The notes beneath the pieces are model-generated. The model did not search any database and was not told the origin of the DNA. It saw only the letters and a list, made by a program, of their open reading frames with translations. A stretch of DNA of 64,000 nucleotides, from assembly GCF_030127145.1 (NCBI RefSeq), contig NZ_CP126158.1, positions 434,001 to 498,000 on the forward strand, read 5' to 3'. The DNA is from Halobaculum halobium (GTDB lineage: Archaea > Halobacteriota > Halobacteria > Halobacteriales > Haloferacaceae). Made by a program: the position numbers and the translations under genes. This document shows positions 21,594 through 34,116 of the stretch, one piece after another; the stretch's first letter is position 1; the number at the start of each line of letters is the position of its first letter.

Positions 21594-22946
21594 TCACTCG
21601 GTCAGCTGGATCATGTTGCCGTTCTGCGTGACGTGGAGGTCGCGCCCGAGCTTGTACCCCTTGCGGCTCGCGAGGTCGACGTACGGCGCGAAGCCCTTCA
21701 TGTCCTGGTGGGCTGGGATGACGTGCTGGGGCTCCAGCGCGTCGAGCATCTGGTAGTGCCCCTCCTCGCGAAGGTGGCCCGACACGTGGATGTCGTCGTA
21801 GATGCGCGCGCCCTGCATCTTCAGGAGGCGCTCGGACTGGTAGCGCTGGCCCTCGTTCGTCGGCTCGGGAATGACCCGCGCCGAGAAGACGACCTTGTCG
21901 CCGTCGTCCAGTTCGTAGGGGGTCTCGCCGCGACCCATGCGGGTGAGCATCGCGCGCGGTTCGCCCTGGTGGCCCGTCACGATGGGGAGGTACTTCTCCT
22001 TGCCCTCCTGCATGATCCGCTTGAACGTCCGGTCGACGGACTTGCGGTGACCGTACATCCCGAGGTCGTCCGGGAAGTCGACGAAGTCCAGCCGCTCGGC
22101 GGTGCCGCTGTACTTTTCCATCGAACGGCCGAGCAGCACCGGTTCGCGGCCGATATCCTGTGCGAACTCGACGAGCGAGGAGACGCGCGAGACGTGCGAG
22201 GAGAACGTCGTTGCGACGATGCCGCCGTCGTAGTCCTCGATGCTCATCAGCGTGTCCTTGAGGTGATTTCGCGCGTGAGACTCCGAGGGCGTTCGGCCTT
22301 TCCGGCCTGCGTTGGTACAGTCCTCGATGTACGCGAGAACGCCGTTGCCCTCGCGACCGATCTCGCGGAACCGCTTCATGTCGATCGGGTCCTCGAGGAC
22401 CGGCGAGTGGTCCATGCGCTTGTCGAGGCCGTAGACGACCGCGCCCTCGGGCGTGTGGACGACCGGATTGATCGCGTCGATGATAGAGTGCGTGACGTGG
22501 ACGAACTCCAGTTCGACGTTGCCCGAATCGCCGATAGACATCGTCTCACCGGCCTCCATCTTCACGAGGTCGTTGTCGACGTTGAACTTGTTCTCGCTTT
22601 TCACCTGCTGTTTGACCAGTTCGATGGTGAACGGCGCCGAGACGATGGGCGCGTCGTAGCGGTGTGCCAGCTTCGAGATGGCGCCGATGTGGTCGAGGTG
22701 ACCGTGCGTCGGCACGATCGCCTGGACGTCGCCCTCCATGTCGCTCATGATCCGGTCGTCCGGAATGGCGCCCATGTCGATAAGGTCCAGGCTGTGCATC
22801 TTCTCCGTCTCGACGTTGTCGTGAATCAGGACCTGACTCAGGTTGAGGCCCATGTCGAACACGACGATGTCGTTCCCTGCGCGAACTGCCGTCATCTGGC
22901 GACCGACTTCCTCGTAGCCGCCAATTGTTGCGATTTCTACTTCCAT
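21594..22946 (-). CDS. rnj: Ribonuclease J (archaeal, beta-CASP metallo-beta-lactamase)
   Basis: A 450-residue nuclease. The metal site motif THGHLDHIG (His81, His83, Asp85, His86) identifies a metallo-beta-lactamase fold, and the beta-CASP part follows with [30 protein letters not shown] and the final [11 protein letters not shown] and PAHQDM metal ligands. Archaeal RNase J acts as a 5'-3' exoribonuclease in RNA decay. ATG 22946 fits the family start ([15 protein letters not shown]). A 370-bp region without genes lies upstream, so the mRNA may have a long leader, unlike most genes here. Confidence 0.93.
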
Positions 22947-26868: not shown

Positions 26869-28155
26869 TCAGTCCATTCTGCGTCGTTTCGAGAGCGTCA
26901 TTCCGACCGTTCCGATCCCGATACTCAGCAGGGAGAATCCGGATACCCAGCCCAGATTCGAAGCCGAGTCGTCGGACTGCTGGGGGATCTGGACGGTCAA
27001 TTCTCCGGTCTCGCCGCCCTCGAGGGTGGTCGTTTCGAGGTCGAACAGCTCCTGCTCGTCGATCTCGTCCGAATCGAACGGTCCCGGAAGGACGAACGAC
27101 GCGAGGTGAAGCGTCCGGGAGTCGGCACCCTCAGCCAGGCGGAACCTGACGGTTACGGACGTCGGATCGTCGTCCGCATCGAAGGTGAACGACTGCCCGA
27201 CGATCGTCACGTCTTCGAGTTGTCCCTGGTTGCGCTGCCGCCGAACGGACGGGTTCTGGGTGACGCCGTCCTCGGAGTTGCCAAGGGCCGACAGTAGATC
27301 CCGCGGCCAGTAGGCCGGCGGATCCGGCGGTCGTTCACCGGTCGCGAAGTCGACCTGCCAGTGGACTACCTCCTCGGGAGTCGGGCTGGCGGTCGTAGTC
27401 GGTGTGTCGGTGGGGGTGTCGGTTGGTGTGTCGGTTGGTGTGTCGGTTGGTGTGTCGGTGGGGGTGTCGGTTGGTGTGTCGGTTGGTGTGTCGGTTGGTG
27501 TGTCGGTTGGTGTGTCGGTGGGGGTGTCGGTTGGTGTGTCGGTTGGTGTGTCGGTGGGTGTGTCGGTTGGTGTGTCGGTGGGTGTGTCGGTTGGTGTGTC
27601 GGTTGGTGTGTCGGTTGGTGTGTCGGTTGGTGTGTCGGTGGGTGTGTCTGTGGGGGTGTCGGTTGGTGTGTCGGTGGGGGTGTCGGTGGGGGTGTCCTGA
27701 CCGACACAGAAGATCACGTTGCTGATCGCGGGGCTCGTCCCGAAGTCGATGAACCCACTCGTTCCGCCGGGGTACTGTTCGATGTCTTGACCGCCCTTCA
27801 CCTGCACCACGTCGATCGACTGTTCAGCCGTCCAGTTGAACGACTCTGGCTCGTCGTCGCCGTCGAGGGAGACGTTCGTGATATTGACTCCCATCGCGTC
27901 TCCGCCCTCCGGGGCAAACGATCCGTCCGACTGCGCTTCGAACTTGACGAGCAGCTCCGTCCCGGTGGGGCAAGTGTTCTGCGGTCCGGTCTGCGCCGGG
28001 TTCGATACTCCGCCCTGTCCCGGGTTCGTCTGCAGCGGTTGTCCCATCGTCGCCGCGCCGGCTATCGGGACTCCGCCGGCCGCGAGTACTGCCGCGCCGG
28101 CGACGACGGCCGCGATGCCGACGGCAAGCGCCGCGTTCGTGGATTCTTTACCCAC
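26869..28155 (-). CDS. Secreted cell-surface protein with Asp-Thr-Pro-Thr stalk
   Basis: A 428-residue protein starting with GTG, preceded by a GGTGAG ribosome site. Residues about 8-35 form a hydrophobic export signal. Residues 40-150 form an N-terminal domain with two cysteines (one in NTCPTGTEL, one in VIFCVG) and N-glycosylation sequons (NIT, NVS, NWT). A (DTPT)n stalk follows, coded by the minisatellite at 27409-27696, then a second beta-type domain and a C-terminal membrane helix (WVSGFSLLSIGIGTVGMTL) ending in SKRRR. It looks like a surface-anchored, probably O-glycosylated protein. It lacks a PGF-CTERM motif. I do not recognise a named family. Confidence 0.75.
   Translation of the reverse strand: MGKESTNAALAVGIAAVVAGAAVLAAGGVPIAGAATMGQPLQTNPGQGGVSNPAQTGPQNTCPTGTELLVKFEAQSDGSFAPEGGDAMGVNITNVSLDGDDEPESFNWTAEQSIDVVQVKGGQDIEQYPGGTSGFIDFGTSPAISNVIFCVGQDTPTDTPTDTPTDTPTDTPTDTPTDTPTDTPTDTPTDTPTDTPTDTPTDTPTDTPTDTPTDTPTDTPTDTPTDTPTDTPTDTPTDTPTDTPTDTPTDTPTTTASPTPEEVVHWQVDFATGERPPDPPAYWPRDLLSALGNSEDGVTQNPSVRRQRNQGQLEDVTIVGQSFTFDADDDPTSVTVRFRLAEGADSRTLHLASFVLPGPFDSDEIDEQELFDLETTTLEGGETGELTVQIPQQSDDSASNLGWVSGFSLLSIGIGTVGMTLSKRRRMD
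27409..27696. repeat. 12-bp tandem repeat (24 units) coding Asp-Thr-Pro-Thr
   Basis: Twenty-four 12-bp units in perfect register. The + strand unit is GGTTGGTGTGTC with variants at a few positions (GGTGGGGGTGTC, GGTGGGTGTGTC, TGTGGGGGTGTC). Read on the - strand every variant still codes DTPT, so all changes are silent. Units 27421-27480 and 27481-27540 are identical 60-bp blocks, showing recent block duplication. Changes in unit number keep the frame and would alter stalk length. Confidence 0.95.
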
Positions 28156-29857: not shown

Positions 29858-32005
29858 ATGGGTAAGTGTATCATCTGTGGTGCGTCCGTGGACGGACGCA
29901 TCTGCTCCTCCCACGAGGAAGACGTCGTCTTCGAGTTCCGCGGCAACGACCCGAACCAACTGAAACCGAACCGATTCTACAGCGGCATCGTCGACGGCTA
30001 CGCCGACTTCGGCGTGTTCATCGACCTGTCGTCCAACGTCACCGGCCTCCTGCACCGCTCCGAACTCGACCGCCGGCTCGAGTCGCTCGACTGGGAGCCC
30101 GGAGACGAGGTGTTCGTCCAGGTGAAGAACGTGCGCGAGAACGGCAACGTCGACCTCGCGTGGTCCATCCGGCAGTCCGAGCGAGAGTTCCGCGGCGTGC
30201 TCGCTCAGGACGGGACCGAGGAAGTCGAGCCCGACTCGAACGACAGCGAGGACGGCAGCGGCGACTCCGCCGTGACACACAAACCGACGCCCGACGAGCC
30301 CGGCACCGACGACGAGTCCGAGGCGGCCGACGAGCCCAACGATGGCGGCGACGGATCGACGACAGAGGCCGAGGCCGACGACAGCGGGTCCGAGGGCGGC
30401 CAATCGCAGGCGGCCCAGGGCGCGTCCGAAGACAGCGACGACGGCGACGACGGCGACGACGTCGAGGCCGTCCGCGAACAGAAGCAGTCGACGCCCGACG
30501 ACGACGGCGAGCGCGTTGACATCGGCACGTTGTCCGACCGCGTCGGCGAGACGATCCGCATCGAAGGCGAGGTCGTCGGCGCGCGCCAGACGGGCGGTCC
30601 GACGGTGTTCGAACTGCGCGACGAGACGGGCGTCGTCGACTGCGCGGCCTTCGTGCAGGCCGGCGTCCGCGCCTACCCCGAGATCGAGGTCGGCGACATC
30701 GTTCGCCTCGAGGGCGACGTGGAGGTCCGGCGCAACGAGATACAGGTCGAAACGGATGCGCTGGCGGCGCTCGAGGGAAATGAGAGCGCGGCCGTCGAGC
30801 GACGCTTGGCCGACGCGCTGACGGACGAAGCCCGCCCCGACGGCGTCGTCACCCTCGGCGAGCACCCGGCGATCGAGACCGTCGGCGACGACCTGCTCGA
30901 GGCCGCCGAAGCCGTCCGCCGCGCGGTCATCGAGTCCCGCCCGATCGTCGTTCGCCACGCCGCCACCGCCGACGGCTACGTCGCCGGCGCGGCCGTCGAG
31001 CGCGCGGTCCTCCCGCTGATCCGCGAGGAGCACGCCAAGAGCGACGCCGAGTACCACTACTTCACGCGCCGGCCGCTCGACGAGCCGGTGTACGACATGG
31101 ACGCGGCGACGAAGGACGCGACCCGGATGCTCCAGGACCGCGACCGCCACGGCGAGCAGCTCCCGCTCGTGCTCCTGCTGGGCACCGGCTCGACCGTCGA
31201 GTCCGAGGACGGGCTCGACCTGCTGGGCGTCTACGACGCCGAGCGCGTCGTCGTCGACGCCGCGACGGCGGATCCCGAGATCGCCGACGCGGTCGCGACG
31301 CTCGTCAACCCCGGGCTCGCGGGCGCCGAGACCGCCGACCTGACCACCGGCGCGATCGCGTCGGTGCTGGCTGCGACCGTGAACGGGGACGTGACCGACG
31401 ACCTCGCGCACCTCCCGGCGGTGAGTTACTGGGAGGGGACACCCGAGGCGTACGCCGACCTCGCGACCGACGCCGGCGTCGACGCCGATCGCGTCACCGA
31501 GTTGCGCGAGGCAATCGCGCTGGAGGCGTACTACCAGAGCTACCAGGACAAGCGCGAACTGATCACCGACATCCTCTTCGACAGCGAGGGCGGCGACCTC
31601 GCGGGCCACATCGCGGGACAGTTCCGCGAGAAGCTGGAGACGGAACTGGAGACCGCCGAGGCGAACATCGAGGAGCGAGAGGTCGACGACTTCACCTTCG
31701 CCGCGCTCGACGCCGACGCGTACAGCCACCGCTTCGACTTCCCGTCGACGACGCTGCTGGCCGACGAACTCCAGCGGCGGGGCGAGCGCGACGCGACGGT
31801 CGTGTACGGCACCGACGAGCTGTACGTGCGCGCCGACGGCGACGTCGACGTGCGCTCGGCCGCCGGCGACGCCGCGATGGCGGTGCCCGACGCGGGCGTC
31901 ACCGCCGTCGGCGTTCGCCAGGGCCGCATCGAGTACCTCGCCGGCCGCCGCGACGAGGTGACCGACGCCGTCGTCGACGCGGTCGCGGGACAGCTGAACG
32001 ACTGA
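29858..32005 (+). CDS. DHH/RecJ-like protein with zinc, S1 and OB domains, degenerate active site
   Basis: A 715-residue protein. A zinc knuckle comes first (Cys4, Cys7, Cys16, His19), then an S1 RNA-binding domain (about 38-105), a long acidic linker (about 115-215), an OB-fold (about 220-300, FELRDETGVVDCAAF), then a RecJ/Cdc45-like DHH domain and a DHHA1-like C-terminus. The catalytic motifs are broken: the HxDxDG motif reads RHAATADG, and the DHH triplet reads DAA (VVVDAATADP). It is likely a nucleic-acid-binding scaffold, not a nuclease. The GINS gene lies 11 kb away. Domain assignment is confident; role is inference. Confidence 0.82.
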   Translation: MGKCIICGASVDGRICSSHEEDVVFEFRGNDPNQLKPNRFYSGIVDGYADFGVFIDLSSNVTGLLHRSELDRRLESLDWEPGDEVFVQVKNVRENGNVDLAWSIRQSEREFRGVLAQDGTEEVEPDSNDSEDGSGDSAVTHKPTPDEPGTDDESEAADEPNDGGDGSTTEAEADDSGSEGGQSQAAQGASEDSDDGDDGDDVEAVREQKQSTPDDDGERVDIGTLSDRVGETIRIEGEVVGARQTGGPTVFELRDETGVVDCAAFVQAGVRAYPEIEVGDIVRLEGDVEVRRNEIQVETDALAALEGNESAAVERRLADALTDEARPDGVVTLGEHPAIETVGDDLLEAAEAVRRAVIESRPIVVRHAATADGYVAGAAVERAVLPLIREEHAKSDAEYHYFTRRPLDEPVYDMDAATKDATRMLQDRDRHGEQLPLVLLLGTGSTVESEDGLDLLGVYDAERVVVDAATADPEIADAVATLVNPGLAGAETADLTTGAIASVLAATVNGDVTDDLAHLPAVSYWEGTPEAYADLATDAGVDADRVTELREAIALEAYYQSYQDKRELITDILFDSEGGDLAGHIAGQFREKLETELETAEANIEEREVDDFTFAALDADAYSHRFDFPSTTLLADELQRRGERDATVVYGTDELYVRADGDVDVRSAAGDAAMAVPDAGVTAVGVRQGRIEYLAGRRDEVTDAVVDAVAGQLND

Positions 32006-32340: not shown

Positions 32341-34116
32341 ATGAGCGGCACCGCAGAGCCGGACCCCGAGCTGTCGGCGTACGCCGAGCAGTCCGACGAG
32401 CCCGAGGCGTTCGAGCGCGCCTGCGCACACCTCGTCGAGCAGATTCTCGACGGCGAGGTCGACCGCGACGGCCTCGAATCCGCCAAGCTCGACGCCTGCT
32501 CGGCGTTCTCCTCGCCGAAGGTGCCCCAGAACACCGACCTCCTCCAGCGTGCCCCCGAGGGCCGGAGGGAGGCGGTCCGCGAGGTCGTCCGGCGCAAGCC
32601 CGTGCGCACCGCCTCGGGCGTGTCGCCGGTCGCGATCATGACGTCGCCGCACACGTGCCCGCACGGGAAGTGCCTCTACTGCCCGGGCGGCCCCGCCTCC
32701 GAGTTCGACTCCTCCCAGAGCTACACCGGCCACGAGCCCGCCGCCGCTCGGGGCCAGCAGAACGACTACGACCCGTACGGCCAGGTCACCCTCCGCCTGG
32801 AGCAACTGCGCCACATCGGTCACCCGGTCGACAAGGCCGAGTTGATCCTCATGGGCGGGACGATGACCGCCCGCTCGCACGACTACCAGGAGTGGTTCGT
32901 CAAGCGGGCGCTGCAGGCGATGAACGAGTACGACACCGACGCGCGGCCGAACCCCGCCGAGGGGCGTAGTTTCGCGCAGGATCCGGCGGCGTACGACTTC
33001 GAATATCTGGAGGACGTGAAGTCGCGCAACGAACAGGCCGACGTGCGCTGCGTCGGCATCACGTTCGAGACGAAGCCCGACTGGTGTGACCCCGAGCAGA
33101 TCGACCGGATGCTGACGCTCGGCGGCACGAAGGTCGAGGTCGGCGTCCAGACGACCTACGAGCGCGTGAACCGCGAGATGCACCGGGGCCACGGCAACCA
33201 GGCGTCGGTCGACGCGAACCGTCGGCTGCGCGACGCCGCGTTCAAGGTTGGCTTCCACATGATGCCGGGGCAGCCCGGAATGACCGCGGAGATGTGTCGG
33301 GAGGACTTCCGACAGCTGTTCGAGAACCCCGACTGGCGCCCGGACTACCTGAAGATCTACCCGACGCTCGTCGTCCGCGGCACCCGGGTGTACGACTCGT
33401 GGCGGCGCGACGAGTTCGAGCCGCTCGACAACGACGAGGCCGCCGATCTCGTCGCCGACGCGATGGATCAGATCCCGAAGTACTGCCGGCTCCAGCGCGT
33501 CCAGCGCGACATCCCCGCCGACTTCATCGACGCCGGCGTCTGGAAGTCGAACCTCCGGCAACTGGCCGAGCAGCGCGCAGACGAGAAGGGCTACACCCTG
33601 CGTGACATCCGCGCCCGCGAGGTCGGGCACAACGACGCCGACCCGCGCCCCGAAGACGTCGAACTGGACGTGGTGACCTACGAGTCCGGCGGCGGGCTGG
33701 AACACTTCATCTCCTTCGAGGACGCCGAACGGGACCTGCTGATCGGGTTCTGTCGCCTCCGGTTCCCGTCGTACTCACACGCCGCGCCGGGCGCCGGCCC
33801 CGCGGCCGACGGCGACGCCGTGCGCCGGGAACTGACGGACGCGGCGCTCGTCCGGGAACTTCACGTGTACGGGTCGCCGGCGACGTTCGACGGCGCGGGC
33901 GACGGGGGAGCCGCGGGCGGAACCGCCGGGTCCGCCGACGACGGGGACTGGCAACACCGCGGGTACGGTCGGCGGCTGCTCCGAGAGGCCGAGGACATCG
34001 CCGACGACGCCGGCTTCCCGAAGCTCTCTGTGATCTCCGGGATCGGCGTGCGCGGCTACTACCGGGACAAGCTCGGCTACCACCAGGACGGCCCGTACGT
34101 GAGCAAGCGACTGTAG
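32341..34116 (+). CDS. elp3: Elp3-family tRNA wobble-uridine carboxymethyltransferase (radical SAM/GNAT)
   Basis: A 591-residue enzyme. The radical SAM cluster motif CPHGKCLYC (Cys106, Cys111, Cys114; CX4CX2C) is typical of Elp3, followed by the MGGTMTAR and TFETKPDWC segments of the barrel. The C-terminal 130 residues form a GNAT acetyl-CoA domain (RGYGRRLLREAEDIA, GYYRDKLGYHQDGPYV). Archaeal Elp3 acts alone to make the cm5U34 intermediate on tRNA. A Gly/Ala-rich insertion lies in the GNAT domain near residue 525. Confidence 0.94.
   Translation: MSGTAEPDPELSAYAEQSDEPEAFERACAHLVEQILDGEVDRDGLESAKLDACSAFSSPKVPQNTDLLQRAPEGRREAVREVVRRKPVRTASGVSPVAIMTSPHTCPHGKCLYCPGGPASEFDSSQSYTGHEPAAARGQQNDYDPYGQVTLRLEQLRHIGHPVDKAELILMGGTMTARSHDYQEWFVKRALQAMNEYDTDARPNPAEGRSFAQDPAAYDFEYLEDVKSRNEQADVRCVGITFETKPDWCDPEQIDRMLTLGGTKVEVGVQTTYERVNREMHRGHGNQASVDANRRLRDAAFKVGFHMMPGQPGMTAEMCREDFRQLFENPDWRPDYLKIYPTLVVRGTRVYDSWRRDEFEPLDNDEAADLVADAMDQIPKYCRLQRVQRDIPADFIDAGVWKSNLRQLAEQRADEKGYTLRDIRAREVGHNDADPRPEDVELDVVTYESGGGLEHFISFEDAERDLLIGFCRLRFPSYSHAAPGAGPAADGDAVRRELTDAALVRELHVYGSPATFDGAGDGGAAGGTAGSADDGDWQHRGYGRRLLREAEDIADDAGFPKLSVISGIGVRGYYRDKLGYHQDGPYVSKRL

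Follow-up and report, generated by a model that had tools for sequence, protein, structure and literature searches.

The question raised by this locus is what a DHH/RecJ-type protein does once the metal-binding motifs of its nuclease core are broken, and whether it should be sought in DNA replication, in RNA metabolism or in both. The window, that is, the whole stretch of 64,000 nucleotides of Halobaculum halobium DNA that was analysed, carries such a gene on the forward strand at positions 29858..32005; its frame is open from end to end, has exactly these bounds and encodes 715 amino acids. We identify it as recJ4, a catalytically degenerate member of the HAN (arCOG00429) branch of the DHH/RecJ family. 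The gene has already been described, and its scaffold role is known from Haloferax. What is newly added here is that, from the sequence comparisons, the inactivation can apparently be traced to one origin and is fixed throughout an archaeal class, and that constraint appears to have moved from the nuclease core to the S1 domain and to a patch at residues 550-596.

Domain layout and the broken active site

RecJ4 is composed, in this order, of a zinc knuckle, an S1 domain, an acidic disordered stretch, an OB fold and a DHH-DHHA1 core with broken metal-binding motifs, and all the segments described below lie on the forward strand. The zinc knuckle (C4-x2-C7-x8-C16-x2-H19; 29867..29914) was recognized in the sequence and is kept in 77 of the 90 aligned RecJ4 rows; it is missing in a genus that is probably Haloferax and in members of other genera of the same family (L112-L116, L029, L030, L036, L121-L123). 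The S1 RNA-binding-type OB domain occupies residues 39-100 (29972..30157; PF00575, 5.6e-7) and the OB fold residues 225-304 (30530..30769; PF01336 at 233-298, 7e-12, with model strands at 232-304). Between them residues 113-222 (30194..30523) form an acidic linker, with 36 D/E against 3 K/R within 100 residues, which is probably disordered according to its charge composition and to the AlphaFold2 model, where pLDDT is below 50 at residues 117-216. The DHHA1 fold at residues 605-714 (31670..31999) was located by alignment, model and fold match. By family membership the zinc knuckle, S1, OB and DHHA1 parts would be nucleic-acid binders.

The DHH domain was left unmatched by the Pfam search of the protein, in which S1 and OB were found. 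The NCBIfam model HAN_nuclease (NF053577) matched residues 194-710 with 396 bits (E 2.8e-118), a score below its curated equivalog cut-off of 840 bits, and the top solved relative by sequence was the HAN core of Pyrococcus furiosus (5yh1, E 2.5e-64). The same structure ranked first in the fold comparison (Z 29, rmsd 4.4, 382 residues aligned). The AlphaFold2 model used for it was built from 23 sequences and has a mean pLDDT of 65.9; it is good for OB and DHHA1 and over a large part of the helical subdomain, but of low confidence at motifs II and III, and it supports the predicted fold but not the active-site geometry. The DHH/RecJ-type core proposed by an earlier note on this DNA is confirmed by these three comparisons. 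Its list of domains also holds, except that of DHHA1 only the fold remains, its GGGH motif being gone.

The losses become clear when RecJ4 is aligned to RecJ3, the intact paralogue of the same genome, with which it shares about 35% identity across OB-DHH-DHHA1. Motif I reads RHAATADG (30953..30976) where RecJ3 has RHHADGDG, motif II reads LLLGTGST (31172..31195) for LMLDNGST, and the DHH motif reads VVDAATAD (31250..31273) for VVDHHHPD; GGGH is intact in RecJ3. The earlier readings of RHAATADG and of a DAA motif are both correct, and so is the loss at motif I, but the family motif is HHxDxDG and not HxDxDG as had been written: two of its residues are gone, namely the second His and first Asp, while D372 is kept. 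Neither of these two lost residues is kept in any of the 89 haloarchaeal RecJ4 rows filled at motif I, in an alignment of 90 rows. The motif II Asp, replaced here by G442, is kept in 8 of 90 rows, and each His of DHH is lost in all 62 RecJ4 proteins of the thinned set. The catalytic residues are intact in 51 of 51 RecJ3 rows and in 20 of 20 non-halobacterial HAN proteins. HAN proteins (PfuHAN of 5yh1 and haloarchaeal RecJ3 among them) have architecture and fold in common with RecJ4; they keep HHxDxDG, DHH and GGGH and are active 3'-5' exonucleases, whereas in RecJ4 none of those motifs is intact.

Since the same losses are fixed across the whole class, sequencing error and chance change of the motifs are ruled out. 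Gene decay is ruled out by the open frame, the near-universal presence of the gene and the strong conservation of S1 and OB. Sequences that retain the lost residues were sought as a test of active relatives, and none was found among the RecJ4 sequences examined. A protein without catalysis, as had been suggested, fits the lost ligands, and the Haloferax orthologue likewise has no active-site residues (PMC10470531).

Two acidic ligands are nevertheless left in nearly all RecJ4 proteins, D372 in 86 of 90 rows and D467, the Asp of DHH, in 87 of 90, and they may allow weak metal binding. That RecJ4 retains a weak or altered catalysis, D372 and D467 being completed by ligands from another subunit, is very improbable, because no sequence has the two His of DHH and several ligands in all are missing throughout, GGGH is lost, and the nuclease core is less conserved in RecJ4 than in RecJ3, both in DHH (0.70 against 0.84) and in DHHA1 (0.64 against 0.85). 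The opposite was found for S1 (0.82 in RecJ4, 0.67 in RecJ3) and for OB (0.79 and 0.68). This shift of constraint agrees with the scaffold role that orthology assigns to RecJ4.

Descent, orthology and gene neighbourhood

A RecJ4 orthologue was detected by protein search in 144 of 145 Halobacteria genomes, RecJ3 and aRNase J each in all 145, and recJ4 is an ordinary gene of nearly every salt-loving archaeon. In a tree of 34 rows RecJ4 forms one clade (SH-aLRT 100), apart from RecJ3, which forms a clade of its own, and from non-halobacterial HAN, and its stem is long, 1.5 changes per column. Beyond Halobacteria, the HAN-family matches in a phylum-wide sample are consistent with one copy per genome. 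The pattern is that expected if the gene was duplicated once in early haloarchaea and one copy was then inactivated in what would be a single event. The sole genome of the 145 without RecJ4 (G021, at L126) encodes a single HAN-family protein, whose catalytic motifs are intact and which has a zinc knuckle at its N-terminus; this copy possibly represents the state before the duplication. It groups with RecJ3 at a support of 84 in a quick tree; the arrangement that holds RecJ3 and RecJ4 together against it has the higher log-likelihood and is not rejected (p-AU 0.711).

Judged from its clade, its neighbourhood and the reported features, the window protein is the orthologue of RecJ4 of Haloferax volcanii (HVO_2889). 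Both have S1, the acidic disordered linker, OB, a degenerate DHH and DHHA1, both lack the catalytic residues, and in both genomes elp3 adjoins the gene and RecJ3 and aRNase J are encoded as well. Here elp3 lies downstream at 32341..34116 on the forward strand, and it is found downstream on the same strand as recJ4 at 55 of the 62 loci checked, which matches the consecutive tags HVO_2889 and HVO_2888 (elp3) of H. volcanii and supports the orthology. The disordered region of HvoRecJ4 begins at residue His104 (PMC10470531), and His104 occurs in all five genomes of one genus of the same family, probable Haloferax, and only there. The zinc knuckle that the window protein keeps is lacking in this genus.

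We regard elp3 as a marker of orthology that does not imply joint action. A RecJ4 that works mainly with Elp3 in tRNA- or translation-linked RNA tasks could be argued from the conserved order of the two genes and from the strong constraint on S1, but it is hardly credible: the gap between the genes is 335 bp here and reaches about 3 kb elsewhere, and the main partners that have been reported for the complex discussed below do not include Elp3.

The genes for those partners are present. The aRNase J gene (rnj), orthologous to that of the Haloferax partner, lies at 21594..22946 on the reverse strand, 8 kb from recJ4, and the intact RecJ3 is encoded 22 kb before the window start, all three genes spanning about 56 kb; most other haloarchaea do not show so close an arrangement. 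A recJ4-rnj operon as a general rule is ruled out, since a spacing of 6.6-13.5 kb is limited to this genus and two near genera, while elsewhere it ranges from tens of kb to Mb (about 134-156 kb in the probable Haloferax genus). Elsewhere in the window, at 26869-28155 on the reverse strand, a protein is encoded that has no Pfam match and is predicted to be secreted; it carries a long (TDTP) repeat and, at its C-terminus, a hydrophobic segment.

The comparison with Cdc45

The earlier note had drawn a parallel to eukaryotic Cdc45 and considered a role in replication. As an analogy the parallel stands: like RecJ4, Cdc45 is a non-catalytic DHH-DHHA1 protein within a larger complex, a DHH protein turned structural. 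Functional kinship does not follow from it, as RecJ4 belongs to the HAN branch and lies at another locus, whereas Cdc45 comes from a different branch, is part of CMG and has no S1, OB or zinc knuckle. In the fold comparison Cdc45 was matched as well (Z 15.4 and 15.3), but below HAN 5yh1 and other RecJ proteins, so Cdc45 is not the nearest. HAN has been described as free of a CMG-interaction-like domain (PMC5717133); where such a domain was considered in RecJ4, helix 581-602 appears, in a reading of the model only, to run straight into the DHHA1 strand at 605.

Inactive RecJ relatives do take the Cdc45 role in some archaea (PMC3307487, PMC7776575), and Makarova and colleagues assigned a replication role to the degenerate haloarchaeal RecJ encoded at S15/S3/Pcc1, arCOG00428 (PMC3307487). 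It should be emphasized that recJ4 is not at this locus. The S15-Pcc1-S3Ae locus, whose gene names were read from the sequences and the published neighbourhood, holds a different gene: between ribosomal S15 and Pcc1-S3Ae there is a degenerate, arCOG00428-like RecJ2 of 411 residues (L206:3262-4497, +). An intact GAN-like RecJ (RecJ1) is encoded elsewhere in this genome. Both RecJ2 and GAN (RecJ1, arCOG00427) belong to the DHH superfamily as RecJ4 does, and RecJ2 is also catalytically degenerate, but they have no S1/OB N-terminus, and BLASTP of RecJ4 against its own GAN and RecJ2 gave no useful similarity (E 0.033 and 0.073). RecJ2 is the likelier Cdc45-type candidate of this genome.

In H. volcanii both recJ3 and recJ4 are non-essential (PMC10470531), and the same is reported for RecJ4 in PMC7776575. 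On branch, locus and this reported non-essentiality we reject RecJ4 as a Cdc45 orthologue. That it would be the counterpart of Cdc45 in this haloarchaeon by function, a non-catalytic RecJ binding GINS and MCM in the CMG helicase, is highly implausible on the same grounds, with better fold matches elsewhere, RecJ2 at the expected locus and an intact GAN present. There is no evidence for RecJ4 as a Cdc45-like replication factor, and this part of the earlier proposal is not supported.

RecJ4 as a probable subunit of an exonuclease complex

The alternative of an RNA factor, also raised earlier, fits the evidence, as the Haloferax orthologue scaffolds an exonuclease complex acting on RNA and ssDNA. 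From H. volcanii, Jia and colleagues isolated a complex in which RecJ3, RecJ4 and aRNase J stand in a 2:2:1 ratio and which is a 3'-5' exonuclease on both substrates (PMC10470531). Co-purification of aRNase J with RecJ3 depends on RecJ4, deletion of recJ4 reduces survival after phleomycin, and the complex is needed for survival of DNA damage (PMC10470531). In another study a Cas1 pull-down also brought down RecJ3, RecJ4 and RNase J (PMC9051519).

With the orthology, the loss of catalytic residues, the presence of the partner genes and the shift of constraint established here, we are confident that RecJ4 of the window is the orthologue of HVO_2889, a HAN-type RecJ that arose by duplication, lost its catalysis a single time in haloarchaea and now serves as a structural and substrate-binding subunit. 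Because the two proteins are orthologous, the scaffold role is expected in this organism too, and the same complex would be formed. RecJ4 would most likely pair one to one with its intact paralogue RecJ3, its acidic linker together with a RecJ4-specific surface of the core could recruit aRNase J, and the zinc knuckle, S1 and OB parts may pass single-stranded RNA or DNA to the RecJ3 active sites.

Where such a surface could lie is suggested by 65 conserved RecJ4 positions that bear a residue rare or absent in RecJ3, and these may form a binding surface. Many of them fall in residues 550-596 (31505..31645, +), a RecJ4-specific conserved patch of the helical subdomain, which is helical in the model and which we consider a candidate docking surface. 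Another is W525, kept in 89 of 90 RecJ4 rows within the conserved motif PAVSYWEG (31415..31438, +), where RecJ3 has PAVAGLSD.

No match to RNase PH-type exosome subunits was found in this genome, and the RecJ3-RecJ4-aRNase J complex is thus met where the RNA exosome is missing. More tentatively, RecJ3 and RecJ4 could form an active/inactive pair, like Rrp41/Rrp42, that replaces the missing haloarchaeal exosome, with W525 and residues 550-596 docking RecJ3 or aRNase J; we consider this possible rather than probable. W525 and residues 550-596 offer concrete targets for testing how RecJ3, RecJ4 and aRNase J assemble.
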